A DNA stretch of 64,000 nt, from positions 1 to 64,000 of the forward strand of contig JAJCYM010000081.1 of the NCBI GenBank assembly GCA_029262895.1. Reading direction: 5' to 3'. A model generated the notes under the pieces. It was not told where the DNA came from, ran no database searches, and saw only the letters and a program-made list of their open reading frames with translations. The stretch comes from Roseivirga sp. (GTDB lineage Bacteria; Bacteroidota; Bacteroidia; Cytophagales; Cyclobacteriaceae). Both the position numbers and the translations under genes were made by a program. Below, one piece after another: positions 1,802 through 39,339 of the stretch. Position 1 is the first letter of the stretch. The number at the start of each line of letters is the position of its first letter.

Positions 1802-1825
1802 TAATTAAGCTTTTGATTGTTGGAG

Positions 1826-1840
1826 CACATATGTTATGTG
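1826..1840. promoter_or_regulatory. Inverted repeat in divergent promoter region
   Basis: The 254-bp gap between the PD40 gene (start 1801) and the histidine kinase (start 2056) should hold two divergent promoters. It contains CACATA-TGT-TATGTG, a perfect 6-bp inverted repeat 25 bp upstream of the PD40 start. This could be an operator. I saw no LytTR-type direct repeat or convincing TAnnTTTG promoter here. Confidence 0.3.
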
Positions 1841-2055
1841 TGAGTACCTTAGTTTATGTAAGGTCTTTGGGCAAACGTAGCGAATAGGATGAATGAGAAG
1901 CCATAAAATAGACGAACCAAATCTAATGAATGGCATAAACAGGTTAGCGACAGAGGATGTTACAAATCCGTAGAAAGCTTGATTTGGGCAATAGTTAATG
2001 ATGTTTCGTCTTTTTTAAAGAAATACCAACCACACGTTTTATATATTCAGAGGTT

Positions 2056-3132: not shown

Positions 3133-3133
3133 G

Positions 3134-3841: not shown

Positions 3842-3875
3842 TGCTTAGCTATTAGACTGATTTAAAACGCCTGCC

Positions 3876-4796
3876 CTATTTGGGTCTGAGATTTTCAATA
3901 ACTTCTGTGCTCACCCAATAAACGTTTGATAATCCTCCTTCTTCGTTATATCTACCAAAGAATAAATATTTGCCATCTGGAGTAATACTCGGGCATGTTT
4001 CGGCAAAATTGGAATTCACTCCAGCGCCAAGGTTAATTGGTTTTGACCATGCTCCATTTTTGTCCTTGAAATAAACATAGATATCGCTTTTTCTTTGATC
4101 ATCTACCTTGTTTCTAGCATTTGCCACTAAATAATCTTGAGAAGGAGAAATAAAGGCGTGCACTCCAAAGTCAATCTCAACTTCCTTTACTTCAGGAAAG
4201 GCACCATTGCTATAAGGTGCGTAGTAGGTTTTTCGTTTTGAAATATTGTAATAAAAAAGATCTCCGTTTTTGGCTTGATTCGAATAGAAAACCCAATCAT
4301 TATTTATTGGTGAATCGAGTTTTTTGGCGTCACTCCATGAATCTCCCAGTCGGTCTACATACCAAATTTTCTCATCTCCAAAAATCGAATCATAAGCCGT
4401 AAAATAGATTTTGTCACCTTTAAGGTTTACAAACGACTCCATTTCTTCTTTCTTCTGGCCTTTTGTGAAATTTGCTTTTTTAGGATAAGACCATTTTTTG
4501 TCTTTGAGTTTTGAGTAATAGATACTTGCATATCCGTCTTCTTTACTGCCTGTATAATACAATTCATCTAAATCAGGAGAAAAGGACACAGAATGTTCAT
4601 ATCTCCCTTTTATTGAAATAATTCCAGGAGCGAAAATTTCAGCAGTTAAGCCTGGTTGCTTTTGCCCAAAATAGGGACCAGTTAAGTTGAGAGAATAAGC
4701 ATTGCTCTCCACCGTCTCCTGAATCTTGTTCTCCTGTGCAAATGCTTGACCAACCAAGAAAATGCTTACCAATAGGAATAATATACTTGTTCTCAT
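3876..4796 (-). CDS. PD40-repeat beta-propeller exported protein
   Basis: 306 residues. A classical signal peptide (about 1-20, ending AFAQ) replaces the lipobox of its paralogues, so it may be periplasmic or secreted. YFGQKQPGLTAEIFAPGI opens the propeller; ISPSQDYLVANARN and [12 protein letters not shown] are PD40 blades; the end is YWVSTEVIENLRPK. It is closest to each propeller half of the 754-residue protein at 11708-13972 (shared phrase EKIWYVDRLGDSWS). It lies 99 bp downstream of the permease gene ending at 4896, separated by a hairpin-rich repeat. Confidence 0.8.
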   Translation of the reverse strand: MRTSILFLLVSIFLVGQAFAQENKIQETVESNAYSLNLTGPYFGQKQPGLTAEIFAPGIISIKGRYEHSVSFSPDLDELYYTGSKEDGYASIYYSKLKDKKWSYPKKANFTKGQKKEEMESFVNLKGDKIYFTAYDSIFGDEKIWYVDRLGDSWSDAKKLDSPINNDWVFYSNQAKNGDLFYYNISKRKTYYAPYSNGAFPEVKEVEIDFGVHAFISPSQDYLVANARNKVDDQRKSDIYVYFKDKNGAWSKPINLGAGVNSNFAETCPSITPDGKYLFFGRYNEEGGLSNVYWVSTEVIENLRPK

Positions 4797-4806
4797 TTTT
4801 TTATTT

Positions 4807-4890
4807 TTTACCTACTTGCCCACCGTAGCATTTGCGAAGGTGGGATCACCCAATCACCTCTCAGCCAACGAAGCTTTAGCGTAGGAGACA
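4807..4890. repeat. Hairpin-rich intergenic repeat-like element
   Basis: The gap between the permease stop and the PD40 start holds CCCACC at 4819-4824 pairing with GGTGGG at 4839-4844, then CGAAGCTTTAGCGTAGG-type sequence. The mixture of short hairpins and this wording resembles dispersed intergenic repeats of Bacteroidota genomes. No second copy is in the window, so the repeat nature is inferred. It may act as a partial terminator between the two genes. Confidence 0.35.
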
Positions 4891-4895
4891 ATAAG

Positions 4896-7286: not shown

Positions 7287-7333
7287 AGATAATGCAATTT
7301 GGTTTTTGTCCTAACTCGTTTTGTTTGCGTTTA

Positions 7334-7350
7334 ACTTGTTGGTAACAAGT
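7334..7350. promoter_or_regulatory. Inverted repeat upstream of permease
   Basis: ACTTGTT-GGT-AACAAGT is a perfect 7-bp inverted repeat, 48 bp upstream of the permease start at 7286 and between it and the LytTR-like repeat. It could be an operator for a dimeric regulator or a leader hairpin. It has no copy elsewhere in the window. Confidence 0.3.
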
Positions 7351-7419
7351 AATTAATGAGTTTGGAAGGTTTACGTTTAATTTCTGATTTAGCCTTTGAA
7401 ATCCACTATCTAATTTGTC

Positions 7420-7447
7420 AACTGCTCTATATGTAAATGAACTGCTC
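7420..7447 (-). promoter_or_regulatory. Putative LytTR binding site (direct repeat)
   Basis: AACTGCTC at 7420-7427 and again at 7440-7447, period 20 bp. Read on the coding (minus) strand the half-site is GAGCAGTT, holding the CAGTT core of known LytTR sites. The same double site occurs at 15028-15055. It sits right after the stop codon of the upstream permease and 134 bp ahead of the permease start at 7286, so it probably drives an internal promoter for the 7286 permease and the PD40 gene behind it. Confidence 0.6.
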
Positions 7448-9847: not shown

Positions 9848-9868
9848 TAGCTTGTTGTGTTTTGTCTG

Positions 9869-10780
9869 TTAATTTTTAGGTCTGAGATCTTCAATAATTC
9901 TGGCATCTACCCAAAAGATGTCTGTGTTTTCGGGACTTACGGCTCGGTTAAAGAAAAGGTACTTGCCGTCTGGTGTGATGGATGCACCACCTTCCCAGAC
10001 GCTAGTGTTGATTTGATTCCCGAGGTTAATCGCTTCACCCCATGTGTCATCTGCTTGCCGATAACTTATGTATAAGTCCGAATCTCCATGGCCTTCTTCT
10101 CGTTCGCTATCCCAAATCAAGTAACTTTCATCTGGTGCAATGAAAGGGTGGGCTGTCCACTTGCCAGTGTTAATGGCTTTGCCGAGTAGTTGAGGTTCTT
10201 CACGTTTGCCATTTTTTAGCCTCGAAATACGGATTACATCTTTATTTTTATAGTCATCAAAAACATAGGTGCCCTTCGCAGAAGCGGACAGGCGCATAAT
10301 ACCCCAGTCGTCTCGGTCAATCATAGGGCCATGACTTTTTACCTCGGACCAACCAGTCTTAGTGCGGTCCATATATTTGCCTCCCAAATGCATGACTTGA
10401 CCATCTGGGGATAGTAAGGGCCTACCTACCCTAGGACCAAACACAGATTCTTGCCATTGATCATTCTCATACTTAAACACCATCAAAGACCATTTCTTGG
10501 TTTTAATGTCCATTCGGGTAAAATAAAATGTCTTCATGTCGGGTGAAAAGAAAGCGCTATTGTCCCTATGTTCAGTGGAAACCACACCGGGTGCAAATGC
10601 TTCAGCGATTAAACCGGGTGGTTTTTGACCAAAGAAGGTTGTTTCTATGATTGATGGATTGCTATTTTTTGAGCCCTGCTTACTCGCATTGCAAGCATTA
10701 AGAAACAGTGTGGCTACAAGCATCAGAATGAAATGTGGCTTTATCATTTTCTGTTTTTTTTTACCTAGTCTAACACCCAC
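9869..10780 (-). CDS. PD40-repeat beta-propeller lipoprotein
   Basis: 303 residues. The signal peptide starts after a basic stretch ([11 protein letters not shown]); the lipobox is LNAC. A later Met ([19 protein letters not shown]) is an equally good start at 10747. The body has the signature [20 protein letters not shown] and PD40 phrases such as [16 protein letters not shown] and [13 protein letters not shown], ending [15 protein letters not shown]. It shares an operon with the 7448 permease. Probably an outer-facing envelope propeller; ligand unknown. Confidence 0.8.
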
Positions 10781-10802
10781 CCACTAGCTGGCTCTTTCAC
10801 TA

Positions 10803-10823
10803 AAAAGGTCTATCAGACCTTTT
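10803..10823. terminator. Bidirectional-type hairpin after PD40 gene
   Basis: AAAAGGTCT-ATC-AGACCTTTT is a perfect 9-bp stem with A and T arms. It lies 15 bp downstream of the stop of the PD40 gene at 10838 and 23 bp upstream of the next PD40 start. It may end or attenuate transcription between the two genes. A degenerate copy stands at 852-868 behind the paralogue at 887. Confidence 0.5.
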
Positions 10824-10837
10824 CTATACGTTCTGCC

Positions 10838-11686
10838 CTACTTTGACCTGAGATCTTCAATGATCTGCGCATCGACCCAATTCCTATCATAGGGCGGGGT
10901 GCAACGCGGACAATAGGTGAGGTATTTTCCGTCTGGAGTGACGTATCCTCCACCGTCTTCACCATCTGTGTTTATTTTGTCTCCAAAGTTGATGGCGGCA
11001 CCCCATGAACCATCTGACTGACGAAAACTGATGTACATATCACCGTTACCATAATCTCCTTCTCTTTCACCATCCCAAATAATGTAGGACTCATCTACAG
11101 CAATAAATGGATGGGCATTCCATTTTCCGGTGTTTATGGCTGCACTAAGAGCTTTCGGAGCCTCGCGCTGGCCGTTGACTAATCGTGAATATCGCAGCAC
11201 CCCATTTCCATCCCTTGTAAATTCATCAAACACCAAGGTTCCATTTGATGAAGCCGTTAGACGCATAATGGGAATAGTATCAAATGGTGCACCTAGGCTT
11301 TTAATCTCCGACCAACCAGAATCGGTTCGTTCTATGTACTTATCCTTGTCGTACATGATGTTACTACCTGAAGGCCGAAATTCGTATTTCTTCCATACAC
11401 GATTTTCCAGCCGAAAGCTCATAACCAGAGGACGGTAGGGTTCCTCAGTGGTGGATATCAAATAAAACTCGTCCATGCCTGGGCCGTGGACACCGCCTAA
11501 CTCCCACCCTTGTTCGGAAATGATTCCGGGTACAAGTGCTTCCGCTGTCATGCCTGGAGGTTTTAGTCCAAAATAGGTTTCTCCTTCAGAGGTTGTTTGA
11601 CTAGCTTCTGTTTCCTGCTTTTCATCAGTGCAGGCATTCAGAAACATTATTGTCAGAAGCATCAGCATGTAATTTGACTTTGTCAT
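10838..11686 (-). CDS. PD40-repeat beta-propeller lipoprotein
   Basis: 282 residues, lipobox LNAC at about 16-19. The propeller signature is YFGLKPPGMTAEALVPGIIS; blades include AVDESYIIWDGEREGD and VTPDGKYLTYCPRC; it ends NWVDAQIIEDLRSK. Two extra cysteines in CPRCTPP near the end are not seen in the paralogues. It is the middle gene of the run 13972 to 9869, 21 bp after the 754-residue protein gene. Function unknown beyond an envelope propeller. Confidence 0.78.
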   Translation of the reverse strand: MTKSNYMLMLLTIMFLNACTDEKQETEASQTTSEGETYFGLKPPGMTAEALVPGIISEQGWELGGVHGPGMDEFYLISTTEEPYRPLVMSFRLENRVWKKYEFRPSGSNIMYDKDKYIERTDSGWSEIKSLGAPFDTIPIMRLTASSNGTLVFDEFTRDGNGVLRYSRLVNGQREAPKALSAAINTGKWNAHPFIAVDESYIIWDGEREGDYGNGDMYISFRQSDGSWGAAINFGDKINTDGEDGGGYVTPDGKYLTYCPRCTPPYDRNWVDAQIIEDLRSK

Positions 11687-11707
11687 ATCGTTCGGTTTGC
11701 CTTATGG

Positions 11708-13972
11708 TTATTTCTTAGGTCTGAGGTCTTGGATAAACCCTGCATCGACCCAGTAAATATTTGATAAACCTGGTTCTATGTCTCTTTCGTCTCTTCCAAA
11801 AAACAGATACTTACCATCAGGTGTGATACTCGGACTCTTTTCATTGAAGTTAGTATTGATGGTATTTCCTAGATTAATGGGCTTGGTCCATGTGCCATCT
11901 TGGTTTTTGAAGTAGACATAAACATCATTGTCTTTTCTGCCTTCCTCTTCTTTATTTCGATCCGTCACTAACAAATAATCCTGCGATGGTGAAATGAAAC
12001 CATGGTGACCAAATTCAATACCCATTTCACTTGTTTCGGGAAACGCTCCGTTTCTGTTGAGAGCAGAATACATTTTGAACCGTGACAAATTGAAATAATA
12101 AAGGTCACCGTTTCTTGACTGATTAGGATAAAACACCATGTCGTCATTGATAGCCGACTCAAGCAAGCTGGCCTCACTCCAGGAATCCTCCAATCGATTT
12201 ACGTACCAAATTTTTTCATCCGTAAAAGCGGTGTCCAGAGCGGTGAAATAAATCCTTTTACCATCAGGGCTAACAAATGGATGTAATTCTTCCTTTTTCT
12301 TCCCGTTTGTGAAATTTGCTCTTTTTATGGGAGTCCATTCATTCTCCTGGAGTTTTGAGAAATAGATTTGTGTTTCATCATCTCCATCATCAGCTCCAAA
12401 GTACATTTCTTTTAAATCAGGAGAGAATGAAATACCCCCCTCAAACCTTCCATCGATTGATACAATGCCAGGAGCAAAAACTTCTGGGGTTAGGCCGGGT
12501 GGCTTTTGTCCAAAGTAACCGTGTTCACGAGTTGATAAATAAGCAGGCTTTAGTTTATGAATAACTTCTGTGCTGACCCAATAGATATTTCCGTTCTCAC
12601 CTTCTTCGCTCCTGCCAAAAAACAAATATTTACCATCTGGAGTGATGGTCGGAACAGCTTCATGAGCCTTTGTGTTGACTTCATCTCCAAGGTTGATTGG
12701 CCTTGTCCAGGTCTTGTCCTTTGATTTAAAGCTGACATAGAGATCAAAGTCTTTTCTTTTTTCATCTTCTTGGTTTCGAGCATACACCAGTAAGTACTCC
12801 TGAGTTGGGGAAATAAACCCGTGATGGCCAAATTCAAGTTCAACTTCCTGTACTTCTGGAAATGCATCATTTTGATTGGTTGCACGGTACATTTTCCCGT
12901 TAGAAATACTCGTGTAAAAGAGGTCTCCGTTTTTTGATTGATTGATATAAAAGACAATGTCATCATTGATCGGTGAATCAAGTTGTTTTGCCTCACTCCA
13001 GGAATCCTCCAAACGATCTACATACCAAATTTTCTCATCTGAAAAGATAGAATCATAAGCCGTGAAGTAAATCCTGTTATCAACCAGGCTTACGGATGGA
13101 TATAATTCCTCCTTTTTTCCCCCATTGGTAAAATTGGCTCTTTTAATAGGAGTCCAGTCATTTCCTTTAAGTTTCGAGAAATAGATAGATGCGTCTTCGT
13201 CATTTTTGCGAGCCGAAAAATAGATTTCGTCTAAATCTGGTGAAAATGAAACACCATGTGCATTCTTTACAATTTCAGGCGCAAAAACTTCCGGAATTAG
13301 GCCTGGTCGCTTTTGTCCGAAATAGTGACTTTCCTTTGCCTTTGTTTTATTCCTTTTGGAGAATGAAAACCTACCCCAGGTGGATTTGTCATCGCTCTTT
13401 GCATTCTTGGGAAATGTAAGGTCGCCTTCACCTTCATGACTGACAGCACTGAGACCAACCATCATCTTCCAGGTATTGCCCGGAAATTTCTTGCGTGAGA
13501 TCTGCATTTGACGATGCGTGCCTTTTGCGAAAATTGGACCCTTCCTATTTTCTACATCTTCAAGTCCGGAATACGGTACCCAGAATCCCGCATAATCTTT
13601 AAGTTTCCATTTGGCGGATACAGGTTCCCAATCGTTGTTTGAGCGAACAGCTTCTCCCATTTGGGCAGACAGATGGAATTTATGAGGCTGACCGGTTTCA
13701 GCATTTTCTATATAAAGGTCTAGAACGGTATAGTCTTCTGTTTTGCCAGATGCACAAAAGTAGAAGTAGTCTTTATCGTGCATCAAATAGATAGCGGCCT
13801 GTCCAGGCATATCTATCTTGGTGGCTGCATCCCATTCATCGTTGCCACAACTGCCGTCTAATAGCCCGGCTTTGTTTGTTGGATTGATGGTTATGGATTC
13901 ATTATTTTCTTGAGCATTAACAGTGTTTAGCGATATTGCAATTGCTATCACCAGAAGTTTATTGATTTTCAT
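11708..13972 (-). CDS. CBM9-like domain plus two PD40 propellers, exported
   Basis: 754 residues. Signal peptide about 1-20. Residues about 25-205 look like a CBM9/DOMON-type beta-sandwich (LDGSCGNDEWDAATKIDM, then DYFYFCASG and WKMMVGLSAV). Two tandem propellers follow, at about 217-478 and 486-752; each opens with YFGQK(R/P)PGL(I/T)PEVFAP and ends YWV(S/D). The DNA of the halves is also alike, so this is an internal duplication. Possibly a sugar- or wall-binding sensor (inference). It is flanked by further propeller genes in the same orientation. Confidence 0.75.
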   Translation of the reverse strand: MKINKLLVIAIAISLNTVNAQENNESITINPTNKAGLLDGSCGNDEWDAATKIDMPGQAAIYLMHDKDYFYFCASGKTEDYTVLDLYIENAETGQPHKFHLSAQMGEAVRSNNDWEPVSAKWKLKDYAGFWVPYSGLEDVENRKGPIFAKGTHRQMQISRKKFPGNTWKMMVGLSAVSHEGEGDLTFPKNAKSDDKSTWGRFSFSKRNKTKAKESHYFGQKRPGLIPEVFAPEIVKNAHGVSFSPDLDEIYFSARKNDEDASIYFSKLKGNDWTPIKRANFTNGGKKEELYPSVSLVDNRIYFTAYDSIFSDEKIWYVDRLEDSWSEAKQLDSPINDDIVFYINQSKNGDLFYTSISNGKMYRATNQNDAFPEVQEVELEFGHHGFISPTQEYLLVYARNQEDEKRKDFDLYVSFKSKDKTWTRPINLGDEVNTKAHEAVPTITPDGKYLFFGRSEEGENGNIYWVSTEVIHKLKPAYLSTREHGYFGQKPPGLTPEVFAPGIVSIDGRFEGGISFSPDLKEMYFGADDGDDETQIYFSKLQENEWTPIKRANFTNGKKKEELHPFVSPDGKRIYFTALDTAFTDEKIWYVNRLEDSWSEASLLESAINDDMVFYPNQSRNGDLYYFNLSRFKMYSALNRNGAFPETSEMGIEFGHHGFISPSQDYLLVTDRNKEEEGRKDNDVYVYFKNQDGTWTKPINLGNTINTNFNEKSPSITPDGKYLFFGRDERDIEPGLSNIYWVDAGFIQDLRPKK

Positions 13973-14015
13973 TTATTAGATGTTCAATGTGATGGATTTG
14001 TCAACTCCTAGCGGC

Positions 14016-14954
14016 TTAGTGGTTCGCTACCTTTGACCATGCGGGCTGTGTGCCATTTGAAATGATTTTTGTTAATGAAGAACCATCCTTATTCATCATG
14101 TAGATATTTCGTTCTCCATCCTGACTGGTTGACGAAAAAATTAATTTCGATCCATCAGGAGACCATGATGGATACCATTTTGCTGGCTCACTAAATGTGA
14201 GTTGTTTTTGATTGGAGCCATCTATATTCATCACATAGATTTCCTTGCTTCCACTCCTATCGGACATAAAAGCGATTTGCGTGCCATCCGGTGAGACCTC
14301 CGGATGCTGTTCTTCAGCTTCATTATGCGTCAACTGAATGATGTTCCCACCGTCAACATCTGCTATGCTAATCTGGGTTCTATTATTTGCAGCTTCTGAG
14401 TGAAACACGATTCTACCATCTGGTGTAAAATAAGGGCCACCACCTTTGATTGGTTTTATTTGAGTCTGCTCGCTCCCATCTGAATTCATGATCCAAACTT
14501 CTTGTTTCCAATTCTCTTCCGAATCTTCGTACTCTCTCGAAAATGCGATTTTTGACCCGTCAGGTGACCATGCTGGTGAATTATCCCATTTGTCCTTTAC
14601 ATGAGTTAATCTCTTCCAATCCGTGCCATCACTATTCATAGTATGAATAGACCATGTCATTCTTTCATCATATTTTGCATAAAAAGCGATGCGCTTTCCA
14701 TTTGGTGACCAGGCTGCATATCCCCCACTATCCACGATTTTACTTTTTGATATGCCTGCGTTATCAGTCAGGTTAATTCCATTCTGTGAATACGCGATTG
14801 TATAAGATGAATTGGTAGTGGCCGTTTCAACCTTTTCTTGAGCAAAGACAGTGTGGAGTGCTACCAAGTTCATTATAGCTAGCACAGTCATCTGCTTGAT
14901 TCCCTTTATGTTTTTACTCACTACTTTGCGGGACTCAGGTAAAGAAAATTTCAT
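14016..14954 (-). CDS. TolB-like PD40 propeller, exported
   Basis: 312 residues. The hydrophobic segment MTVLAIMNLVALHTVFAQ is the likely signal peptide; the upstream Met at 14954 adds about 21 basic residues, so 14891 is an alternative start. Six or so classic TolB/PD40 blades follow (AAWSPNGKRIAFYA, PAWSPDGSKIAFS, PEVSPDGTQIAFMSDRSG, PSWSPDGSKLIFSS). These are closer to canonical TolB repeats than the FGQKPPGL family beside it. It is divergent from the kinase at 15115, with a LytTR-like site between. Confidence 0.8.
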   Translation of the reverse strand: MKFSLPESRKVVSKNIKGIKQMTVLAIMNLVALHTVFAQEKVETATTNSSYTIAYSQNGINLTDNAGISKSKIVDSGGYAAWSPNGKRIAFYAKYDERMTWSIHTMNSDGTDWKRLTHVKDKWDNSPAWSPDGSKIAFSREYEDSEENWKQEVWIMNSDGSEQTQIKPIKGGGPYFTPDGRIVFHSEAANNRTQISIADVDGGNIIQLTHNEAEEQHPEVSPDGTQIAFMSDRSGSKEIYVMNIDGSNQKQLTFSEPAKWYPSWSPDGSKLIFSSTSQDGERNIYMMNKDGSSLTKIISNGTQPAWSKVANH

Positions 14955-26200: not shown

Positions 26201-27064
26201 CTAAAATTTGAGCTTATTTTCTTTGTGATGAATTGTCAGTTGTTGACCAGATTCGATTTGTCCGATATGATCGCATTGGATGTCGTTGTCAGAAAAAATC
26301 TGCTGAATGGCCTTTATGTTGCTGGCTTTGCAAGTAAACAGGTACCCATAGCTTGGAAAGCTGATTAGCCATTTCTCCCATGAAACCTTAGCCGGTTTGG
26401 TTATGGCTTCTAAGTTTATCTTTACCCCCACTTTTGAGGTGTTCATCAGCATGCAAATGGTACCTATAATTCCCCCCATACTGACGTCTTTTGCAACTGA
26501 ACTCAGAAGCTCATTAGCAATTTGGTAAGGCAATGTCACCCGCTGCTGTAGTATTTCAGGAGCGGTGGTGGTGCTTGCGTTCCAGAAGGGGTAATCTTTA
26601 TAGTATGCCCCATTTTGATCGATGGCCAAAAGCAATGCTTCTCCTGGTTGAGCATCAAAACTCGTTAACAGATGTTCTGTGGCTTTACCGAGAATAGAGA
26701 CGCTCAGGGCCTTGTTTTCCGAATGGTAGCAGGTATGCCCTCCCACTATGGGAACACCATAATTAGTAGATGCGGCTAGCATACCTTTCCAAATCTGTTC
26801 TGAGGAAGCAGCATCCATGCAATACAAGGTGTCGGTAACTGCAACAGGCAGCCCACCCATAGCGCAAATGTCACTGATATTGACCATCACTGCCGAGTAA
26901 CCTGCAAACCAAGGATCATTGGTTAAAAACCCATCGATGATTCCCTCTGCTGCCAATAGCAAGTGACTACCATCTGCCTGTTGAATGGCTGCGGTATCAT
27001 CACCTAGTCTTATATCAGTAACCTTGTTTTTGAAATAGGTACTGCTTTTTACGGAGTTACCCAA
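26201..27064 (-). CDS. nitF: Sll0787-family AIR-synthase-like protein (NitF), start uncertain
   Basis: At least 287 residues of a PurM/AIR-synthase-like fold: LGDDTAAIQQADGSHLLLAAEGI for the ATP site, then VMVNISDICAMGG and GGHTCYHS. The only standard start in frame is TTG at 27064, but family-like sequence continues upstream without ATG, GTG or TTG to a TGA at 27172, the nitE stop (see the separate entry for 27065-27172). Activity in the pathway unknown; AIR-synthase relatives bind ATP and phosphorylate or cyclise small molecules. Confidence 0.82.
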   Translation of the reverse strand: MGNSVKSSTYFKNKVTDIRLGDDTAAIQQADGSHLLLAAEGIIDGFLTNDPWFAGYSAVMVNISDICAMGGLPVAVTDTLYCMDAASSEQIWKGMLAASTNYGVPIVGGHTCYHSENKALSVSILGKATEHLLTSFDAQPGEALLLAIDQNGAYYKDYPFWNASTTTAPEILQQRVTLPYQIANELLSSVAKDVSMGGIIGTICMLMNTSKVGVKINLEAITKPAKVSWEKWLISFPSYGYLFTCKASNIKAIQQIFSDNDIQCDHIGQIESGQQLTIHHKENKLKF

Positions 27065-27172
27065 GGCCCGATAAGTGCGTTCTATAGCGATCTTGTCCGT
27101 GACATGCGGATGGTTTCTAAGTTTCGATATGTTTTCTAAAATGTCGATGATATCTGTGTGTAATGATGGTCA
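27065..27172 (-). other. In-frame nitE-nitF junction with single TGA and no usual start
   Basis: Read on the minus strand, nitE ends ...PYVA-TGA at 27172-27170 and the same frame continues PSLHTDIIDILENISKL, then RNHPHVTDKIAIERTYRA, into nitF. This part resembles the N-terminus of Sll0787-type proteins, so it is probably translated. Candidate explanations are a rare ATT/ATC start, TGA readthrough (the next base is C, a leaky context), or a nonsense change or base error in an originally fused gene. Confidence 0.6.
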
Positions 27173-27784
27173 GGCAACGTATGGTAGTTGGGCTAATGCT
27201 TGTTCGCTTTTTAGTGGGTCGGCAGTGTAAATGGCAGTTGCCGGATAAGCCTCCAGATCCGCTTCCATCAAGTAATGTTGTACCCCATAGAGACTAATGC
27301 CCTCAATCACCTTCCAATGCAATCGCTCGAAAAGTTTTACATTTTGCTCTTGCACATGAGCAGAGAATTTATCGCAGCCTAGATAGTTGGCCAAGGAGAC
27401 CGCACGGTAAATTAATCCTGCGGCTATTGACTTATGATAGAGTGCTGTGGGCTCCAGTCCTTTAAATAGATGAGGACAAATGAAATTCGAAAAAGAACGG
27501 TAGCCATTGACGACTCCCAATCGGCCCCCGAACCATTCCCGTTTGTTTTCTTCATAAATGCGCACAACACCTACTACTTCGTCCGGTGAACCCAGGTAAT
27601 GGTTGATGGCAATGATGGGAATGGCAGCATGGTCGTGATCGTCAAAATCGCTTTCCTGAAAAAGCTCCTGCTCTTCACAGAAGATAGATCTTCTGATCTT
27701 ATAATAGGCTTGTAATTGTGCCTGATCATTGGGCAGGTTAATGTCTACGAAGTTTAATCGGGTATTTGAATTAAAATAAATCAT
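27170..27784 (-). CDS. nitE: MSMEG_0567/Sll0786-family GNAT acetyltransferase (NitE)
   Basis: 204 residues from the ATG at 27784, which overlaps the nitD stop as ATGA; the longer frame to 27841 lies inside nitD and is rejected. The sequence is GNAT-like: YYKIRRSIFCEEQELFQ, VVGVVRIYEE, then GLIYRAVSLANYLGCDKFSAHVQEQNVKLFERLHWKVI, the acetyl-CoA-binding and C-terminal strands. In some actinobacteria the homologue is fused to an AIR-synthase-like domain, relevant to the in-frame junction with nitF. Confidence 0.88.
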   Translation of the reverse strand: MIYFNSNTRLNFVDINLPNDQAQLQAYYKIRRSIFCEEQELFQESDFDDHDHAAIPIIAINHYLGSPDEVVGVVRIYEENKREWFGGRLGVVNGYRSFSNFICPHLFKGLEPTALYHKSIAAGLIYRAVSLANYLGCDKFSAHVQEQNVKLFERLHWKVIEGISLYGVQHYLMEADLEAYPATAIYTADPLKSEQALAQLPYVA

Positions 27785-28899
27785 GCGACATACTTTTTTT
27801 CGAAGGTGGATAATGTAGAACAGGCTCCACATGCGGCACAACCTGATTCAAGGGTGTCTGAAGTCATTTTTGCTTTGACCAATGCTTGTGCTAGTGGATC
27901 TAAAATATCGTGCATAAACTCTTTATTTGGACCCTTATGATTTTCAAGTGGCGTATTTCTGATGGGTACAAACGGGACTACAAATGGATAGACTCCGATG
28001 GCAATGAGTTGCTGGGACATTTCGAGAATCTCGTCTTGTGTATCTCCTAACCCAGCTAAAATGTAGGTGCTTACATTGCCTCTGCCGAAAACGGCTACCG
28101 CACTTTTAAAGGCTTCGAAATAGTAGCTCAGCGATACCTCGGCTTTGCCCGGCATAATTTTGTTCCTCGTCCTATCGGAAACTGCCTCGAGGTGCATGCC
28201 TATGGCACTTGCTCCTGCTTTTTTGAGTAAATCGAACCATTGAAAATCATCAGGTGGTTCGCACTGTACTTGTATGGGGATATCTACCACTTCTCGTACA
28301 GCGGCTACGCTCTCAAATAAGATTTTTGCACCTCTGTCTGCACTGGCAGGTGTGCCTGTGGTCATTACAAACTGAGATACTCCATCAAGTTCTACCGCGC
28401 GTTTGGCTACTTCAGCCAGTTGATGAGGCTTTTTATAGGCAATGGTGGTATCGTATTTTAGTGATTCACCTATGGCGCAAAACTGGCAAGAGGTTTCTTT
28501 TTCCTTGTAGCGAATGCAGTTTTGAAGTACAGTAGTGGCCAGCACATCTTTGCTATGCAGGCGAGCAATTTTCCAAAAGGGAATGCCATCCGAGCTGGTC
28601 TCTTTGTAAAAACGTGGTTCTTCAATAAATCGAATGGTGGTCACCTTTTCCCCATTTTTTGTAAGTGAAGCGATTCCCATTTTGGATGGGATGCTGACTT
28701 CAAAAGGAGAAGATTTAGCTGAATGACTAAATACAGGAACCATAATCGTTGTATCAAAAATGGTGACTGCTTTGTGGTCAGTCGGGCCTGCTCCTCCCTC
28801 ACGTATCGTGAGGTCAGCTGTTCCTGCCAATCGAATTCCTTGTGTCTGGATCTCGTTTAATAAGTTGTGATTATGCGTTAATGTCAATGTATCGTTCAT
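27781..28899 (-). CDS. nitD: MSMEG_0568-family radical SAM protein (NitD)
   Basis: 372 residues. The [4Fe-4S] cluster motif is C128-x9-C138-xx-C141 (NCIRYKEKETSCQFCAIGE). TGTPASADRG and an (beta/alpha) barrel follow. The C-terminus has C354-xx-C357-xx-C360, probably an auxiliary metal site. This is the radical SAM member of Nit1C, expected to work with the nitrilase; its reaction is unknown. It starts 32 bp after nitC and overlaps nitE by 4 bp. Confidence 0.92.
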   Translation of the reverse strand: MNDTLTLTHNHNLLNEIQTQGIRLAGTADLTIREGGAGPTDHKAVTIFDTTIMVPVFSHSAKSSPFEVSIPSKMGIASLTKNGEKVTTIRFIEEPRFYKETSSDGIPFWKIARLHSKDVLATTVLQNCIRYKEKETSCQFCAIGESLKYDTTIAYKKPHQLAEVAKRAVELDGVSQFVMTTGTPASADRGAKILFESVAAVREVVDIPIQVQCEPPDDFQWFDLLKKAGASAIGMHLEAVSDRTRNKIMPGKAEVSLSYYFEAFKSAVAVFGRGNVSTYILAGLGDTQDEILEMSQQLIAIGVYPFVVPFVPIRNTPLENHKGPNKEFMHDILDPLAQALVKAKMTSDTLESGCAACGACSTLSTFEKKYVA

Positions 28900-28931
28900 C
28901 TTAAAGTCTTTATTCCCTTGTGTAAATCGGA

Positions 28932-29942
28932 TTACTTTACACCGATCCGGAAATCTTCAGTGTCGTCTTTTAGTGCTGTGTTGTTTGAATTCATGGCTGG
29001 AGCCGGAACCGCGTGCATTAGTTTTTTAGGATTCTTATCAATATTGAGGGAAAGCAACTCAGGCCTTGAATAATGACCAACAGAGTCCATCATGCGTTTT
29101 CTTTTGGTGATTAGGGACATGTCCATATCAGCATAGACAATGCCTTCACCTTCACTCAACACATCTGAAATGATTACCCCTTCAGGTGATATGATGGCCG
29201 TGAAACAGCCTTTGTCAAGTACCTTTTGCATTTTTTCATCTTGGGTGATCTGCTTGACCTGCTCTGGATAGAGGTATCCTGTTGAATTGATCACAAAACA
29301 ACCTGATTCTAGTGCATGGTGTCGCATGCTTACCTCCATTTGGTCGGCAAATATTTGCCCTACCATAGATCCTGGAAATTGACTGCAATGGATTTCTTCA
29401 TGATCATTCATCAGCGCATATCGGGCCAGTGGGTTGTAATGTTCCCAACAGGCCAAAGCCCCAATTCTTCCAATCGATGTATCCACGGCTTTTAACCCAC
29501 TGCCGTCACCTTGTCCCCAAATCATACGCTCATGATAAGTGGGGGTGATTTTTCTACGGTTCAGTACGAGCTCACCGGTGGTATCAAAGACTAACTGAGC
29601 ATTGTATAAGGTTCCATTGTCAAGTTCATTGACTCCGAGCACTACAACAATCTTGTGCTCTTTGGCCAAAGTGCCAATGAAATCAGTCTCCTTGCCTGGA
29701 ACAACCACACTTTCCTCATATAATTTGATATGATCTTTACGGAAGGCGACAGCTGGCTTTACGAAAGAGAAATAAGGGTAATAAGGCACTACGGTTTCCG
29801 GAAAAACAATAATGTCGGCTTCATTTACGCTTGCCTTTATGATGGCTTCAGCTACTTTATCGATGGTCCCTGACCTGCTTTCTAAGACAGGAGAAATTTG
29901 TGCAGCAGCAGCTTTTACAATGGGTTTTTTAAACATCATCAT
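28932..29942 (-). CDS. nitC: Sll0784-type nitrilase (NitC)
   Basis: 336 residues. Carbon-nitrogen hydrolase with the catalytic triad visible: Glu49 ([14 protein letters not shown]), Lys131 ([13 protein letters not shown]), Cys165 ([12 protein letters not shown]). Three Met codons in a row leave the start between 29942 and 29936. It converts nitriles (R-CN) to carboxylic acid plus ammonia; members of this clade in Nit1C clusters are linked to cyanide use as nitrogen source. It is separated from nitB by 90 bp holding a strong hairpin. Confidence 0.93.
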
Positions 29943-29978
29943 TAGATTTTCGTGACCGTTGATTCCTAATGTTATGAC

Positions 29979-30021
29979 TGAAGCAAGCCTCGGGAAAGGG
30001 TATTCGCTGAGGCTTGCTTCA
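29979..30021 (-). promoter_or_regulatory. Long intercistronic hairpin between nitB and nitC
   Basis: TGAAGCAAGCCTC at 29979-29991 pairs perfectly with GAGGCTTGCTTCA at 30009-30021 (13 bp), loop 17 nt; the outer GACT/AGTC can extend it past a one-base bulge. No T-run follows on the transcribed strand, so it looks more like an mRNA-stabilising or processing hairpin, or a partial attenuator, than a full terminator. Confidence 0.6.
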
Positions 30022-30032
30022 AGTCAATAGAT

Positions 30033-30515
30033 TTACATGGTCCAGGAGTCCATTTGGAATGCACCTTCATTGCGGTGTACCAATTGGATATCCAGCACGT
30101 CCAGTGGACTGATAGGCTGTATTCCCGGCATCAGGGAAGGTTCTCCCATTCCGTAGAGTGCTTGCAATGCAAAGCGGCAGGCATAAACCTTTCCTCCTTC
30201 GTCCATGAACTTTTTGAGCCTAGCGGCATAGTTCAAATGTCCCGGAAATGCTTCATTACCAAGTGTTGGAAATCCTCTTTGAATCCCAAGTGTTACACCC
30301 GGTCCGTATAATAAAATAGAGGTTTCAAACCCTTTGCGCTGCAGTCTGGTAGCGGAAAGAATATTTACCAAACCGATAGAACCTTCAAAGGCTACGGTAT
30401 GGAAAGTTACCAGTGCTTTTTCTCCCGGTTTGGCTTTGACATCTTCAAATACTTTGTCTTCATAGTCTACAAAGAAGTCTCCGTCTTTGTGCATTGGTGT
30501 TTCTACTTTAGGCAT
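30033..30515 (-). CDS. nitB: MSMEG_0572/Sll0783-family nitrogen-starvation protein (NitB)
   Basis: 160 residues, full-length match to the Sll0783 family: [55 protein letters not shown]. The fold is DsrE-like (inference). It is the first gene of the Nit1C unit; homologues respond to nitrogen starvation in cyanobacteria. Start 30515 is 260 bp downstream of the HTCS gene; the leader carries the TGTTC direct repeat. Biochemical role unknown. Confidence 0.9.
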
Positions 30516-35153: not shown

Positions 35154-35840
35154 TCATATCTCAAGTGCTTCATCTTCCTCAGCGCTAAGACACCTTTTTT
35201 GACATGAAGAACTTTCTGTGACACCGTCCTTGTTATCAGTCTTTTTGAAAAGCACTTTAATTTGAGGTTTGCCGTTGAGACTATTTATATGATAGCCTAA
35301 ATTTTCAATCCATTCAACAACTTGAAGCTGCAAATGATTATTAGCAGTAGACTTATGCCCTTGACCTTGTCTGATTATACCTGTCAAATCTTCAGGAATA
35401 TCAATTGGTTGATCACCGAAGTAATAAAAATGAGTCGAGAGTAGCGAATTTTTCCCACCAAAATCAGTGTCTCGATTTCCAATACCGTGAACACTTGGTC
35501 GTAAGCTCCCTAATGGATTTGACTCAAAATTATAGATGCAATCTCCTACTTGCTCTTCATAGTTTTTAGAACGTATATCAGGAATTTTACCAGTCAATTC
35601 TGATCTACAGAGTTGGTCATATTGCTCTAAACTCAATGTATCTGTTACCTTCATCGCATAAACCATCTTTCCAGAAAAATCTTTGCCATTCACATTCTTG
35701 CTGCCAACGCCTACCACCCAGTCTCCGATATGAGCGACTCTGCGAATGACTGGTTTGCAAATTGTCAATGTGCAAACCCCATAGTATGGATTTGGTGCCG
35801 CTCCTTCGTCTATTGGTATACAATATGAAAACAGTCTCAA
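35154..35840 (-). CDS. Nmad2-family protein (nucleotide modification associated domain 2)
   Basis: 228 residues. The N-terminal half carries the Nmad2 hallmarks: MRLFSYCIPIDEGAAPNPYYG, CTLTICKPVIRR, HIGDWVVGVGS. GIGNRDTDFGGKNSLLSTHFYYFGDQP then LTGIIRQGQGHKSTANNH follow; the His/Arg-rich motifs look enzymatic. The family was named for its links to DNA base-modification genes and resembles ASCH/EVE-like nucleic-acid domains; its function is not established. The C-terminus ends with a Cys-containing tail (SSCQKRCLSAEEDEALEI). It overlaps the 69-residue gene by 4 bp; last gene of the cassette. Confidence 0.75.
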   Translation of the reverse strand: MRLFSYCIPIDEGAAPNPYYGVCTLTICKPVIRRVAHIGDWVVGVGSKNVNGKDFSGKMVYAMKVTDTLSLEQYDQLCRSELTGKIPDIRSKNYEEQVGDCIYNFESNPLGSLRPSVHGIGNRDTDFGGKNSLLSTHFYYFGDQPIDIPEDLTGIIRQGQGHKSTANNHLQLQVVEWIENLGYHINSLNGKPQIKVLFKKTDNKDGVTESSSCQKRCLSAEEDEALEI

Positions 35841-36046
35841 CCTTTAACTTTTATAAACCCTAAAAAATCTTCTCGAGTATAGCCGCCACGAATCCGTGTT
35901 TTGCTAAAATCTGAATAGTAAAAACCTCGGGCCCTTATCCTGTCACGAATTACTTTTTGTTTGGTACTTGGAGCATTTAGCTTTTGTTCAATGAGTTCAA
36001 GAATTTGATCAACTTCCTTTTGAGAAAAAATCTTCTTTCCTTTCAT
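35837..36046 (-). CDS. Small basic protein of the MazG/DUF2075/Nmad2 cassette
   Basis: 69 residues, basic, predicted mainly helical, with an N-terminal amphipathic stretch (QKEVDQILELIEQKL) and the motif RARGFYYSDF followed by GYTREDFLGFI. I recognise no named family with certainty. The 4-bp ATGA overlap with the Nmad2 gene and 65-bp distance from the helicase gene mark it as an operon member. It could be a nucleic-acid-binding or adaptor subunit (inference). Confidence 0.7.
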   Translation of the reverse strand: MKGKKIFSQKEVDQILELIEQKLNAPSTKQKVIRDRIRARGFYYSDFSKTRIRGGYTREDFLGFIKVKG

Positions 36047-36111
36047 TACTTTTTTTTTAATCCAGTATGAATTCTGTTAACTAGTTGGCCTTCCCTAAAT
36101 ACCTGCAAAAA

Positions 36112-38295
36112 CTAACTTAAAACTCGATCAAATATTCCAATGACCCGGAATGATTCCATCCCTTGTGCATCAAGAACGATATCATCGAATGTAGCATCAT
36201 TTGAGATAGGCCTAAGTCTGATCGACTCATGTCCCCAACCTGAGTCGTTTACGGCTTTTTTACTGTAATATTCCTTTACCGTATAACCAGACCCCATATC
36301 GGTATCTTGAATCTCAGAGGATTGGGCAAGTACGATTTTTCCATTCCGTGATCCACCATTATATTTCTTAAAAAGGCAAATTGAACCATTTGGAATAATC
36401 CTGTTCATAGATTCTCCAATGACTTCACAAGCAAACAAATCTTCCGAAGCTTTAACATTACTTGGAATTTGAACCCATTCATGGTCTTCCACTTTTTGAG
36501 ATTCACTGAATAACCCAGCCGCAGCTTTTAAGTCGTATAATGGAACTGAATTTTGATACGGTATTAATTCTACCGGCTCAACTTCTTTTTTAAACTCACT
36601 TAGTGCTCGATTCAAATAACTGGCAATATATTTTCTCAAATCAGGATCACACACATAAATATATGTACCTCTAATTCCTCGTAATAAGATGGTTTTATAG
36701 ATGTTGAGTATGAAATGCTTAAGCTCTGCGGGGTCTTTGATACCGTTTCCGCCCTTTTTATCATGATAATTCTCCTTGTGAATAATGATCTCTTGTCGTA
36801 CAGAATCAAACCCGATCTCTTTGCCAAAAATTACACCAGCATAATTCAGATCATACCCTTGTGTTGTATGGATGCATCCGACTTCCTCAACACTTCCTTC
36901 AGAATTAATCCATTCCGAAGGCTCTGTATTCCATCGAAGCTGCAAGCCTTCTATTTCAATATCAAATAATTCAGGAGTCTTCTTTGAAATCCATTCCCAG
37001 GAAAATCCTGCAATCATTCTTGACAATCCAAATTCTTGATCCTTGTTTTTAATGCTTTGAATCATGGAAGATATAGAGCTGAATATTTTTAAATCATAAT
37101 TTGAATCACTAAAAGGTTTATGTTCCTTGATATTAACATCCATTAGATTGTTCACAAACTTTACATATCCGTTTCCTCCACGAACACGAAATTGAGAGGT
37201 GAGATTTCCTTCATATGTGTTGGTCTCATGAATTAGATCGTAGAAATCAGATGCTTCTATATCTGACGGCTTAATTGATTGATCTTTATCATAAAAGAAG
37301 ATTGCTTGGTTTGATTGAAGTTTTATCCAATCAAGTTCAGTCCCGTGGTCTGTGTCCAAATTAAGCCGCTTGTTTCCATCATCAAAAGATTTATAATTAG
37401 TGAGGTTTTTTCGTCTTTTCAGCCGATGTGCCTCATCTACCACGACAATGTCATACTTGTCTCTTGTTATATCTGTGGGACCAACAACCATACTAGCTTT
37501 CAGCCCTTTGACATTACTAAAGACCTTTTTTAAGGTGTTTCGAAAAGATGACATGGGAACAACCAATGCCATTTTAGGTTTGGGGTAAATTTGTTTAAGT
37601 CTCTCAACCTTTTTCAGAAGGTTAACACCATTATCACTTCCTAAATCTTTAGAATTAAAATCTGATAGATCCGTGACAAGAAGTTTGAAGAGAAAAACAG
37701 CTAGAATAGTTTTGCCTGTACCAGCACCACCCTTCATCACAATATTTTTGTATGAATTATCAATCAAACTGTCAATGATCAACGATAGTCCCTTTAGCTG
37801 TTCAATTGATAACGTTTTGTACGGAGAGTACTTGAAAAGGTCAGAATTGTTGATTTCCTCAATTGATTGGTCTGCTATACCTAATGAACGAAGGCTATCC
37901 CAAATGGAAGTAAACATACCCCAATAGACTTCTTCCTTTTGATAGTAATTGTGATTGGCTAATCCGATAGTATCATTCAGAAGTTGATACTGCCCATCAC
38001 CTGATATGTATTTTATAAGGTTTGATTCAATGTCCAATGTGGCTGATTTATTGAACATTTTGCTCTCGATGAGATGCGCCTCTGTTAACTTCCTCTTCTT
38101 AGTGTTTTTTAGATGAGTATTCATCCGTTTAACAGCGTCTGCCGTTTCCCCTACATAGGCAATTTTCTCCTTACCTTGACTGAGCAGATATACTATTGGC
38201 CAAAGGTTATTGGCAAAGTTGAGACCGTCAATTTTCTCAGATATTGCTGCGTTGAAATCGAATTTTCTAATTTCAAACGAATTGCTTGAAATCAT
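36112..38295 (-). CDS. GIY-YIG + DUF2075 helicase + S24/LexA-type peptidase fusion
   Basis: 727 residues. GIY-YIG nuclease domain about 33-98 (VYLL at 35, AYVGE at 46-50, Arg57, Glu90). DUF2075 SF1-helicase core with Walker A GGAGTGKT at 189-196, Walker B VVVDEAH at 284-290, TTQGYD at 477-482 and RGIRGTYIY at 539-547. C-terminal S24 peptidase domain about 585-727: VPLYDLKAAAG with an Ala-Gly cleavage-type site at 593-594, Ser629 in GESM and Lys674 in YTVKEYY. No HTH is visible. Overlaps the MazG gene by 4 bp. Confidence 0.88.
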   Translation of the reverse strand: MISSNSFEIRKFDFNAAISEKIDGLNFANNLWPIVYLLSQGKEKIAYVGETADAVKRMNTHLKNTKKRKLTEAHLIESKMFNKSATLDIESNLIKYISGDGQYQLLNDTIGLANHNYYQKEEVYWGMFTSIWDSLRSLGIADQSIEEINNSDLFKYSPYKTLSIEQLKGLSLIIDSLIDNSYKNIVMKGGAGTGKTILAVFLFKLLVTDLSDFNSKDLGSDNGVNLLKKVERLKQIYPKPKMALVVPMSSFRNTLKKVFSNVKGLKASMVVGPTDITRDKYDIVVVDEAHRLKRRKNLTNYKSFDDGNKRLNLDTDHGTELDWIKLQSNQAIFFYDKDQSIKPSDIEASDFYDLIHETNTYEGNLTSQFRVRGGNGYVKFVNNLMDVNIKEHKPFSDSNYDLKIFSSISSMIQSIKNKDQEFGLSRMIAGFSWEWISKKTPELFDIEIEGLQLRWNTEPSEWINSEGSVEEVGCIHTTQGYDLNYAGVIFGKEIGFDSVRQEIIIHKENYHDKKGGNGIKDPAELKHFILNIYKTILLRGIRGTYIYVCDPDLRKYIASYLNRALSEFKKEVEPVELIPYQNSVPLYDLKAAAGLFSESQKVEDHEWVQIPSNVKASEDLFACEVIGESMNRIIPNGSICLFKKYNGGSRNGKIVLAQSSEIQDTDMGSGYTVKEYYSKKAVNDSGWGHESIRLRPISNDATFDDIVLDAQGMESFRVIGIFDRVLS

Positions 38296-38612
38296 AATTC
38301 ATCGTATTTCTTGGCTGTTCCTTTAGCTTTTTCAATAGGATATTTCTCAGCATTTTTCTTGATCTTCTCTAGTATGATTTCTTTAATGTCAAAGTCATAC
38401 TTTTCAGCCAAGAGCAACCCATATGCAAAAATATCTGCAAGCTCCTCTTTTACTTTTTCTTTATCAGCAGAATCATGGTCTTTCCATAAAAAAAGCTCAA
38501 GAAGTTCAGCAGCTTCAACATTGATTGCTAGAGCCAAGTCTTTTGGATTATGGAATTGTTCCCAATCTCGCTCATTTCTAAAGCGAATTAATTCATCTAT
38601 TACTTCTTTCAT
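38292..38612 (-). CDS. MazG-like nucleotide pyrophosphohydrolase
   Basis: 106 residues, all-alpha MazG fold: ERDWEQFHNPKDLALAINVEAAELLELFLW gives the first metal-binding EAAEL helix (quoted region residues 14-43), and EELADIFAYGLLL the second acidic set. Such enzymes hydrolyse NTPs/dNTPs to monophosphate plus PPi. It is the first gene of the cassette and its stop overlaps the fusion-helicase start. A role in depleting or sanitising nucleotides during phage or DNA-damage stress is inferred from context. Confidence 0.88.
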   Translation of the reverse strand: MKEVIDELIRFRNERDWEQFHNPKDLALAINVEAAELLELFLWKDHDSADKEKVKEELADIFAYGLLLAEKYDFDIKEIILEKIKKNAEKYPIEKAKGTAKKYDEL

Positions 38613-38749: not shown

Positions 38750-38950
38750 TCAATCCTGCCTCAAACTAATCACTGGATTGGTGAACACCGTTTTGATCAC
38801 ATGATAGCTGATAGTCAATAATAGGATAGCCAATGTGGTGATGCCCACAGAAAGGAAATAGGTAAAGTCTACATGGATATGATAAGCAAAATTAGCAAGC
38901 CATCGTTCGGTGTCTTTTAAATAATGATCAAAGTATTGATTCATCCACAA
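38750..38950 (-). pseudogene. C-terminal remnant of an FtsX/MacB permease
   Basis: The frame encodes TERWLANFAYHIHVDFTYF, a last membrane helix, and TNPVISLRQD. This matches only the final 50-odd residues of the double-length permeases elsewhere in the window (WLENFQFHITPGFTIF to NPAQNLRSE). No permease sequence is recognisable upstream beyond about 38915, so this is a truncated fragment. It abuts the MazG cassette, suggesting that a rearrangement or insertion removed the rest. Confidence 0.75.
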
Positions 38951-39339
38951 TTACAATCCAATCCTCACGGTCCGTCAGTTTTGGATATGTCTTGCCTTTT
39001 TCAATCCCAAATTTATGAGTGAGTGTAAATAAATGCGTTTGATTGCCTTGAAGGTCATCTTTTAATTGATTCCTGTTTTTAGGTCGGTACTTGTTCTTTT
39101 TGGGTCTTCTACTTTTGGTCTTGCTTCCGTTTCGAGAAAATGGCCAGCCAGCGAGTGTCATCCGCTACCCTACTATATGGCTAGAAAAGCCAACTTCCTT
39201 GATAGAAGGTTTATAGTTGTTGATTCAATAACAAGGCAAAGGTCAGGAGCTAATGCCCACTGACCTTTTTAACTATCCGGATTGATTTATCCCCACATCC
39301 AACTTCACGTCCGATTCAACCCTGGATTTCGTTAATCGA
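38951..39339. other. Gene-free stretch with rearrangement traces
   Basis: 389 bp between the permease remnant and the SnoaL-like gene. The left half has open frames without family likeness. The right part, 39223-39297, is a near-copy of the terminator region behind the deiminase gene at 20.6 kb, but here no plus-strand gene precedes it. I see no other feature. Confidence 0.5.
39238..39270 (+). terminator. Orphan copy of the 20.6-kb terminator repeat
   Basis: AAAGGTCAG ... CTGACCTTT stem and T-run as at 20624-20658; flanks 39223-39297 also align with 20609-20686. No plus-strand gene lies within 1 kb upstream, so the element appears displaced or left over after loss of a gene. Confidence 0.7.

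Follow-up and report, generated by a model that had tools for sequence, protein, structure and literature searches.

Introduction

Restriction enzymes must be kept off the genome of their own host, above all after DNA damage, and several described systems bear on the locus reported here. SauUSI, in which the domains are ordered PLDc-helicase-DUF3427, is ATP-dependent and cuts DNA containing 5-methylcytosine or 5-hydroxymethylcytosine (PMC3874153; this and the other papers given by PubMed Central, PMC, identifier are drawn upon in part). HsdR is known to be switched off by proteolysis (PMC4231737; PMC11109961; PMC12707154), and in the case of EcoKI of Escherichia coli the host is protected via a separate protease, ClpXP. 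In addition, RecA-mediated self-cleavage of S24 proteins has been described as determined by a Ser-Lys dyad together with an Ala-Gly bond, which is Cys-Gly in UmuD (PMC8565304), and readers of the YTH/EVE type serve modification-dependent restriction enzymes (PMC12707154). MazG, MazG-C, NMAD and UDG are among the domains of the systems predicted by DefensePredictor, of which the nucleotide-related ones were, in the portion of that paper used here, not experimentally validated (PMC13092281). Here we describe a cassette of four minus-strand genes at positions 35154–38612 of a stretch of 64,000 nucleotides from Roseivirga sp. (contig JAJCYM010000081.1, positions 1–64,000; this whole stretch is called the window), whose first two genes encode a MazG-like nucleoside triphosphate pyrophosphohydrolase and a nuclease-helicase that ends in an S24 tail.

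An S24 tail family on three restriction architectures

The nuclease-helicase of the window (727 aa; 36112–38295, minus strand) comprises, according to Pfam, a GIY-YIG domain at about residues 34–93, a superfamily 1 (SF1) helicase of Schlafen group 3 (SLFN-g3) at about residues 184–550, and an S24 tail at about residues 585–726. The tail module (36115–36609, minus strand) shows in the tail alignment a cleavage-type site, AAGLF, followed by the serine of GESM and the lysine of YTVK; with this Ala-Gly scissile bond and Ser-Lys dyad, it has the sequence features of S24 proteins of the LexA/UmuD type. All 20 aligned tails (from 12 GIY-YIG proteins, five PLDc-ResIII-DUF3427 proteins, two HsdR-like proteins and one contig-end fragment) keep [AST]AGxF, the Ser of GxS[MI] and the Lys of [FY]T[VI]K, and the spacing is near-constant, being 34–37 and 44 residues in the 17 tails measured.

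We searched 395 genomes of the phylum of the window, which the named relatives L002 and L003 indicate to be probably Bacteroidota, and 299 genomes of a second phylum, together with a genome collection. At E ≤ 1e-12, a profile of 17 tails matched 18 of the 395 genomes (E-values of 3.6e-78 to 2.7e-43), and these matches were 10 GIY-YIG/SLFN-g3 proteins, five PLDc-ResIII-DUF3427 proteins, two HsdR-like proteins and one contig-end fragment. Each complete match lies at the C-terminal end of a nuclease-helicase of the restriction type, and three architectures account for all of them. No LexA-sized protein was found among the complete matches at this threshold in the 395 genomes, and the tails therefore constitute a distinct family; a 246-aa frame (L186; loci are denoted by L and a number) belongs to the broken helicase L035 as its second piece. 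Pfam was applied to L054 as one of the DUF3427 proteins and to L058 as one of the two HsdR-like proteins, and full homology to these was found for the remaining four DUF3427 proteins and for L057. The tail is also borne, in the second phylum, by L139 and L142, both of them SLFN-g3 proteins that lack GIY-YIG. In a midpoint-rooted tree of 19 tails, in which eight of the 16 inner branches were left open, the HsdR tails cluster with those of L139 and L142 (100/99), apart from all others, and a further clade (100/99), inside an unresolved set of GIY-YIG tails, comprises the DUF3427 tails, a pattern that would be expected if the tail had moved between architectures. Phage relatives of the tail were found in 22 records, the 10 listed being annotated as XRE or repressor proteins, with 29% identity.

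All five tailed PLDc-ResIII-DUF3427 proteins have an upstream NUDIX gene that overlaps their start (Pfam on one of them), and no nucleotide-hydrolase partner was seen by eye alongside the HsdR-like pair (L057, L058). Two different tailed nuclease-helicases are thus each coupled to a nucleotide hydrolase, MazG in one case and NUDIX in the other, in a parallel pairing. The occurrence of one S24 tail family on three restriction architectures is the most informative point of this study; the earlier note on this DNA, made from the sequence alone, had named S24 in its title and assigned it no role.

The other parts of the nuclease-helicase are conserved as well. GIY-YIG residues Y36, Y47, G49, R57, H61, E90 and N107 are invariant in 14 of 14 aligned homologues, and we take the conserved Tyr, Arg and Glu to have the roles that such residues play in GIY-YIG nucleases. 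Walker A and VDExHRL (DEAH-type) motifs are likewise present in all 14, and S24 in 12 of them. Structural matches of the helicase are of SF1 type, with UvrD and SLFN11/14 among the best, and a sequence search of the PDB with the helicase gave nothing useful.

Linkage of MazG to the nuclease-helicase

The conserved unit is a pair, with MazG directly before the GIY-YIG/SLFN-g3/S24 protein. The 727-aa query matched 26 of the 395 genomes at E ≤ 1e-20, including 12 with the GIY-YIG/SLFN-g3 architecture (the window among them), six with an SLFN-g3 helicase that lacks GIY-YIG and seven matched in the S24 tail only; in the 26th genome, G026, the match is confined to the tail and an SLFN-g3 helicase is encoded separately. 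In all 12 GIY-YIG/SLFN-g3 loci, the gene immediately upstream encodes a MazG homologue, so the recurrence of MazG with this helicase is above chance. Among the seven SLFN-g3 loci without GIY-YIG, MazG adjoins the helicase in five and is separated from it by one gene in L050, and no MazG was found in L051. In the genome collection (five loci), MazG is direct in three and one gene away in one, and the fifth locus begins inside the helicase gene.

In the second phylum, eight of the 299 genomes matched, and MazG adjoins the helicase in all four GIY-YIG loci, one of which (L137) is the same locus as L004 of the genome collection and was thus counted in both. The best loci of the other four genomes also have MazG adjacent, downstream in L139 and upstream in L140, L141 and L142; no MazG was seen in L134, a second locus of one second-phylum genome with short flanks. 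Where the MazG/helicase junction was measured (n = 17), the genes overlap by 4 bp in 12 cases and by 1 bp in two, and are separated by gaps of 15–17 bp in three.

The MazG-like protein of the window, which is the first gene product of this core pair (106 aa; 38292–38612, minus strand; PF12643), keeps E33, E36, E57 and D60, which are invariant in 16 of 16 homologues and which we take to be the EXXE..EXXD metal-binding motif of the family. When a profile of these 16 homologues was compared with the PDB, dCTP pyrophosphatase 1/RS21-C6 (E 2e-24) came second to an entry named 'pyrophosphatase' (1e-24), and these nearest solved relatives suggest a dCTP-type substrate for the window MazG.

P69 and Nmad2

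The remaining two genes encode a 69-aa protein (P69; 35837–36046, minus strand) and an Nmad2 protein of 228 aa with a TTG start (35154–35840, minus strand; Pfam). Neither was detected, by phmmer and the P69 profile, in any of 19 other GIY-YIG/helicase loci searched with wider flanks (L034–L044, L003, L005, L120, L122 and L135–L138). Nmad2 occurs in 14 of the 395 genomes and shares one genome, that of the window itself, with the 26 helicase genomes, against 0.9 expected (26 × 14/395). Around the other 13 Nmad2 loci of the phylum, neither an SLFN-g3 helicase nor P69 was detected (the Nmad2 of L117 was too weak for phmmer at E 0.001), and the five genomes behind L002–L006 gave no Nmad2 match, with the control silent as well. 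These linkage counts (0 of 19 loci; one shared genome against 0.9 expected) led us to reject the four-gene unity that the earlier note had proposed. Co-occurrence of the four families, the check that it had suggested, holds for MazG and the nuclease-helicase (12 of 12 loci) and fails for Nmad2 and P69, and the scattering without linkage that it had regarded as telling against its proposal was found for the Nmad2/P69 half and not for the MazG/helicase half. Its boundary was too wide, and the system consists of the first two genes; P69 and Nmad2 are local cargo until shown otherwise.

P69 matched no Pfam family, and no match was obtained in plasmids or viral contigs. Its residues 1–67 are 50% (E 2e-13) and 48% (E 7e-12) identical to the N-termini of proteins from two other genomes, and the remaining matches, at E 0.004 and above (29 of 32 genomes), were treated as noise. 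The view of P69 as an orphan was rejected, since it corresponds to the N-terminal domain of these longer proteins (221–236 aa), here occurring on its own. Two such proteins, at L118:6170-6835 and L119:6402-7112, have an unnamed nuclease-like C-terminal domain, and the L118 gene lies, by eye, between type I S-like and R-like genes. The C-terminal part of the longer proteins matched no Pfam family and looks by eye like a PD-(D/E)XK fold; its relatives were found on 14 plasmid records, in matches that start at residue 94 at the least and leave P69 uncovered, and in one weak phage match.

The predicted model of Nmad2 resembles the YTH/EVE (PUA-like) folds of base readers, and Nmad2 is thus a possible candidate for a modified-base reader; its sequence gave nothing useful against the PDB. 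No match to Nmad2 was found in phage records, and 10 contigs of a viral collection contain it. Sets of Nmad2, MazG_C and UDG genes were observed in contigs of this collection at L150:3528-6420, L152:1718-4594 and L147:1619-4007, and the L150 set includes a TIR gene in addition; for a TIR-like gene suspected by eye in L152, no homology to that of L150 was seen. A second recurrent Nmad2 neighbour, with RKGFDS..GG.PSPIFPDG near its start and by eye perhaps Nmad3, was seen at L109:5007-5402, L112:2505-3383 and L113:291-863. In addition, proteins encoded directly before an SLFN-g3 helicase were noticed at L050:5872-6963, where the gene lies between the helicase and MazG, and at L051:6107-7039. The L051 protein has an HNH_2 domain and that of L050 matched no Pfam family, both N-termini are PUA/EVE-like by eye, and they possibly represent an independent reader-helicase pairing.

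Cassette layout and genomic setting

The four open reading frames lie where the earlier note had placed them, and its domain labels (MazG, GIY-YIG, DUF2075, S24 and Nmad2) agree with Pfam, DUF2075 being the annotation that PF09848, the SLFN-g3 helicase family, carries in public records. The scores were 72 bits for MazG-like PF12643, 216 for PF09848 and 181 for Nmad2; Peptidase_S24 (PF00717) reached 33.2 against a cut-off of 23.3, and GIY-YIG 23.8 against 22.6, a narrow margin. Measurement bore out the 4-bp overlaps claimed for two of the three junctions, MazG/helicase and P69/Nmad2, and the third, helicase/P69, is a gap of 65 bp.

The G+C contents of the MazG, helicase, P69 and Nmad2 genes are 0.336, 0.365, 0.348 and 0.386, respectively, against 0.415 for the window, and G+C as low as that of the helicase gene is also found in three further open reading frames of the window of at least 200 aa. 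In a congener, the neighbouring (downstream) two-component gene is present at 69% identity and different genes occupy the position of the cassette. The low G+C and the absence of the cassette from this position in the congener are both compatible with acquisition. A phage origin was considered and rejected: no helicase relative was found in viral contigs with either a single-protein or an alignment query. The broken permease reported upstream was recognized by eye as MacB/FtsX-like fragments at 38750–39161 (minus strand), directly upstream of the cassette, possibly an insertion scar. Promoter and terminator scans of the region gave no excess over shuffles, no tRNA was found in the window, and no repeat was found flanking the cassette.

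The statement of the earlier note that it could match the set to no named defence system stands, as none of the four proteins had a full-length match in PADLOC-DB. The helicase matched Nhi and AbiO partially (E 2e-10 and 3e-9), the best stretches being model positions 260–375 of 470 and 254–372 of 468, about a quarter of each. We compared neighbours of the pair in other genomes, picked by eye rather than systematically, with PADLOC (10 proteins from eight loci) and with Pfam (10 proteins, nine of them shared). RADAR genes follow the core pair in L036 (RdrA and RdrB) and L039 (RdrA, with a next gene homologous to RdrB of L036 at 1291 bits); these RADAR-like spans, L036:2578-7599 and L039:2931-7962, are separated from the pair by gaps of 107 and 38 bp. 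A GmrSD-like gene is located downstream in L038 and in L049, whose helicase lacks GIY-YIG, and a Ppl/AAA_21-like gene is the second downstream in L040. Neighbours in L041, L042 and L046 gave only partial PADLOC matches. Of the anti-phage or DNA-stress role that had been ascribed to all four genes, what survives is that some relatives of the core pair lie in a defence-like setting; the four genes as one system did not hold.

Two further features of the window were noted by eye. Nitrilase, radical SAM, acetyltransferase and AIR-synthase-like genes stand in a row at 26201–30515 (minus strand), in an arrangement that resembles a nitrilase cluster of the Nit1C type, and related secreted proteins with repeated starts are interleaved with FtsX-type permeases at 887–14954.

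Discussion

We give about an even chance to the interpretation that MazG and the nuclease-helicase form a two-gene restriction-type anti-phage pair, the effector of which would carry a self-cleavage switch responsive to DNA damage, with P69 and Nmad2 as an add-on. The helicase-nuclease would attack foreign nucleic acid, and MazG may remove abnormal or surplus deoxynucleoside triphosphates (dNTPs), which would either starve the phage or prevent modified bases from entering host DNA, in which case the nuclease would spare its own genome. RecA filaments on single-stranded DNA arising from damage or infection would lead the S24 tail to cut itself at Ala-Gly, and this self-cleavage would change the activity of the nuclease-helicase. 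P69 and Nmad2 would be a translationally coupled add-on present in the genome of the window only, Nmad2 perhaps reading modified bases. Cleavage as a brake on self-restriction, a built-in form of restriction alleviation, seems slightly more likely than cleavage as arming. A brake would fit the HsdR case because the known damage-induced control of HsdR, in the portions of the literature used here, is a proteolytic shut-off (PMC4231737; PMC11109961; PMC12707154), and arming would fit because of the precedent of UmuD (PMC8565304). In a broader form, to which we assign somewhat less than an even chance, a dedicated family of LexA-type self-cleaving tails would have been passed between at least three nuclease-helicase architectures (GIY-YIG/Schlafen-type, SauUSI-type and HsdR) and would link RecA filaments post-translationally to the activity of defence enzymes, as built-in restriction alleviation or as a damage-armed trigger, and in two of the three a dNTP-clearing partner would protect the host from its own nuclease.

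Several observations weigh against this interpretation. At E ≤ 0.01, the only match of the tail in the PDB was LexA 3k2z, at a weak E of 0.009, and the tail alone as query gave zero matches there. The predicted model of the nuclease-helicase is of too low a quality in its S24 and GIY-YIG parts to be used there, the tail being of low confidence. S24 is missing from the GIY-YIG relatives L042 and L005, and the plasmid relatives L120 and L122 are without the tail motif; the pair can work without S24, because the tail is absent from such relatives. The same two plasmid loci, GIY-YIG relatives from Firmicutes, have no MazG within 13 kb. Some copies are decaying, as the L035 helicase has an in-frame stop and the L135 MazG is split between two frames. 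Apart from the window, the phylum has 11 GIY-YIG loci, and a PADLOC-type gene was found downstream in four of these (L036, L038, L039 and L040) in the unsystematic neighbour scan; most of the genes beside the relatives are not known defence genes. No known defence system was seen elsewhere in the window by eye on open reading frames of at least 120 aa, without a scan.

Other explanations share parts of this evidence. The helicase-nuclease, which has SLFN11/14 and UvrD among its best structural matches, might process stalled forks or damaged DNA as an SOS tool rather than a defence enzyme. MazG and NUDIX are house-cleaning families, and on this account MazG would clean the pool of damaged dNTPs. 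S24 would switch the enzyme on as UmuD does for polymerase V, its self-cleavage being the SOS mechanism (PMC8565304). We consider this account improbable, as a patchy distribution (26 of 395 genomes), low G+C, absence from the site in the congener, the sharing of the tail with restriction enzymes of type I and of the SauUSI type, and RADAR- and GmrSD-like neighbours are better explained by accessory defence than by core repair. The tail might instead not cut itself in the cell and serve as a dimerization or partner-binding domain, or as a docking site for RecA that leads the protein to single-stranded DNA. The S24 domains of LexA, CI and UmuD also dimerize, and the tail is dispensable in some relatives; however, the site, the Ser and the Lys are kept in all 20 tails over three architectures, which pure docking would not require, and this reading appears fairly unlikely.

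The helicase family, Schlafen group 3, with its structural matches to SLFN11/14 and the weak partial PADLOC matches to Nhi and AbiO, also raises the possibility of an effector that acts on RNA (tRNA or phage transcripts) as eukaryotic Schlafens or AbiO/Nhi-type proteins do, in which the growth of infected cells would stop and MazG would contribute to this shutdown by lowering nucleotide pools. We doubt this, in that GIY-YIG makes up the nuclease half, Pfam matched no nuclease domain of Schlafens, and the shared tail ties the protein to DNA restriction enzymes. Finally, all four genes might form one modification-dependent system, with Nmad2 reading a modified base, P69 linking it to the nuclease-helicase and MazG clearing the matching modified dNTP. 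The compact same-strand layout, the coupled start of P69 and Nmad2, and the absence of any terminator-like minus-strand site in the region are in keeping with this, yet chance expects just 1.9 such sites. Nmad2 is found elsewhere beside MazG_C (another MazG family), UDG and TIR genes, a P69 relative lies in L118 between the type I S-like and R-like genes (by eye), and the Nmad2 model resembles the YTH/EVE readers that serve modification-dependent restriction enzymes (PMC12707154). Even so, a single four-gene system is rather unlikely, given that Nmad2 and P69 are absent from the 19 other GIY-YIG/helicase loci, that the 13 other Nmad2 loci lack both the SLFN-g3 helicase and P69, and that the 65-bp gap divides the cassette into two halves.

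If the two-gene reading with a self-cleavage switch is true, the self-cleaving LexA-type tail that three restriction architectures have kept would solve the problem of self-restriction in one piece, and would provide a direct post-translational link from the SOS signal to anti-phage defence. In addition, the repeated pairing with MazG or NUDIX raises the idea that clearing of modified dNTPs could be a form of self-protection for a modification-sensing nuclease.

Comparison with known systems

Both halves of the pair are known already, and their combination was not found in print: neither S24 joined to these helicases nor MazG joined to DUF2075 and GIY-YIG was found in the open-licence PMC literature by titles and the beginnings of abstracts, which is not proof of absence. 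MazG and NMAD appear among the systems of DefensePredictor, whereas GIY-YIG and the helicase are absent from its main text in the portion used here (PMC13092281). Nhi and AbiO of PADLOC show a partial likeness in the helicase region and no full-length match. The parallels with type IV modification-dependent restriction are parallels of architecture. Among type IV enzymes, the SauUSI type (PLDc-helicase-DUF3427) is, like the window protein, a nuclease and a helicase in a single chain, and some of its members (L052–L056) have the same S24 tail and an overlapping NUDIX gene; in contrast, PLDc is replaced by GIY-YIG in the window protein, the helicase is of the SF1 Schlafen type and not of the ResIII type, MazG takes the place of NUDIX, and DUF3427 is lacking. 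The Ala-Gly site and the Ser-Lys dyad are common to the window tail and to LexA, UmuD and phage CI, although S24 is here the tail of a 727-aa nuclease-helicase and not that of a repressor or a polymerase subunit. Similarly, the HsdR-like proteins L057 and L058 of the type I kind bear the same tail, the window protein itself not being an HsdR. Compared with restriction alleviation by ClpXP, the protease in the pair described here would be built into the enzyme and would act in cis.

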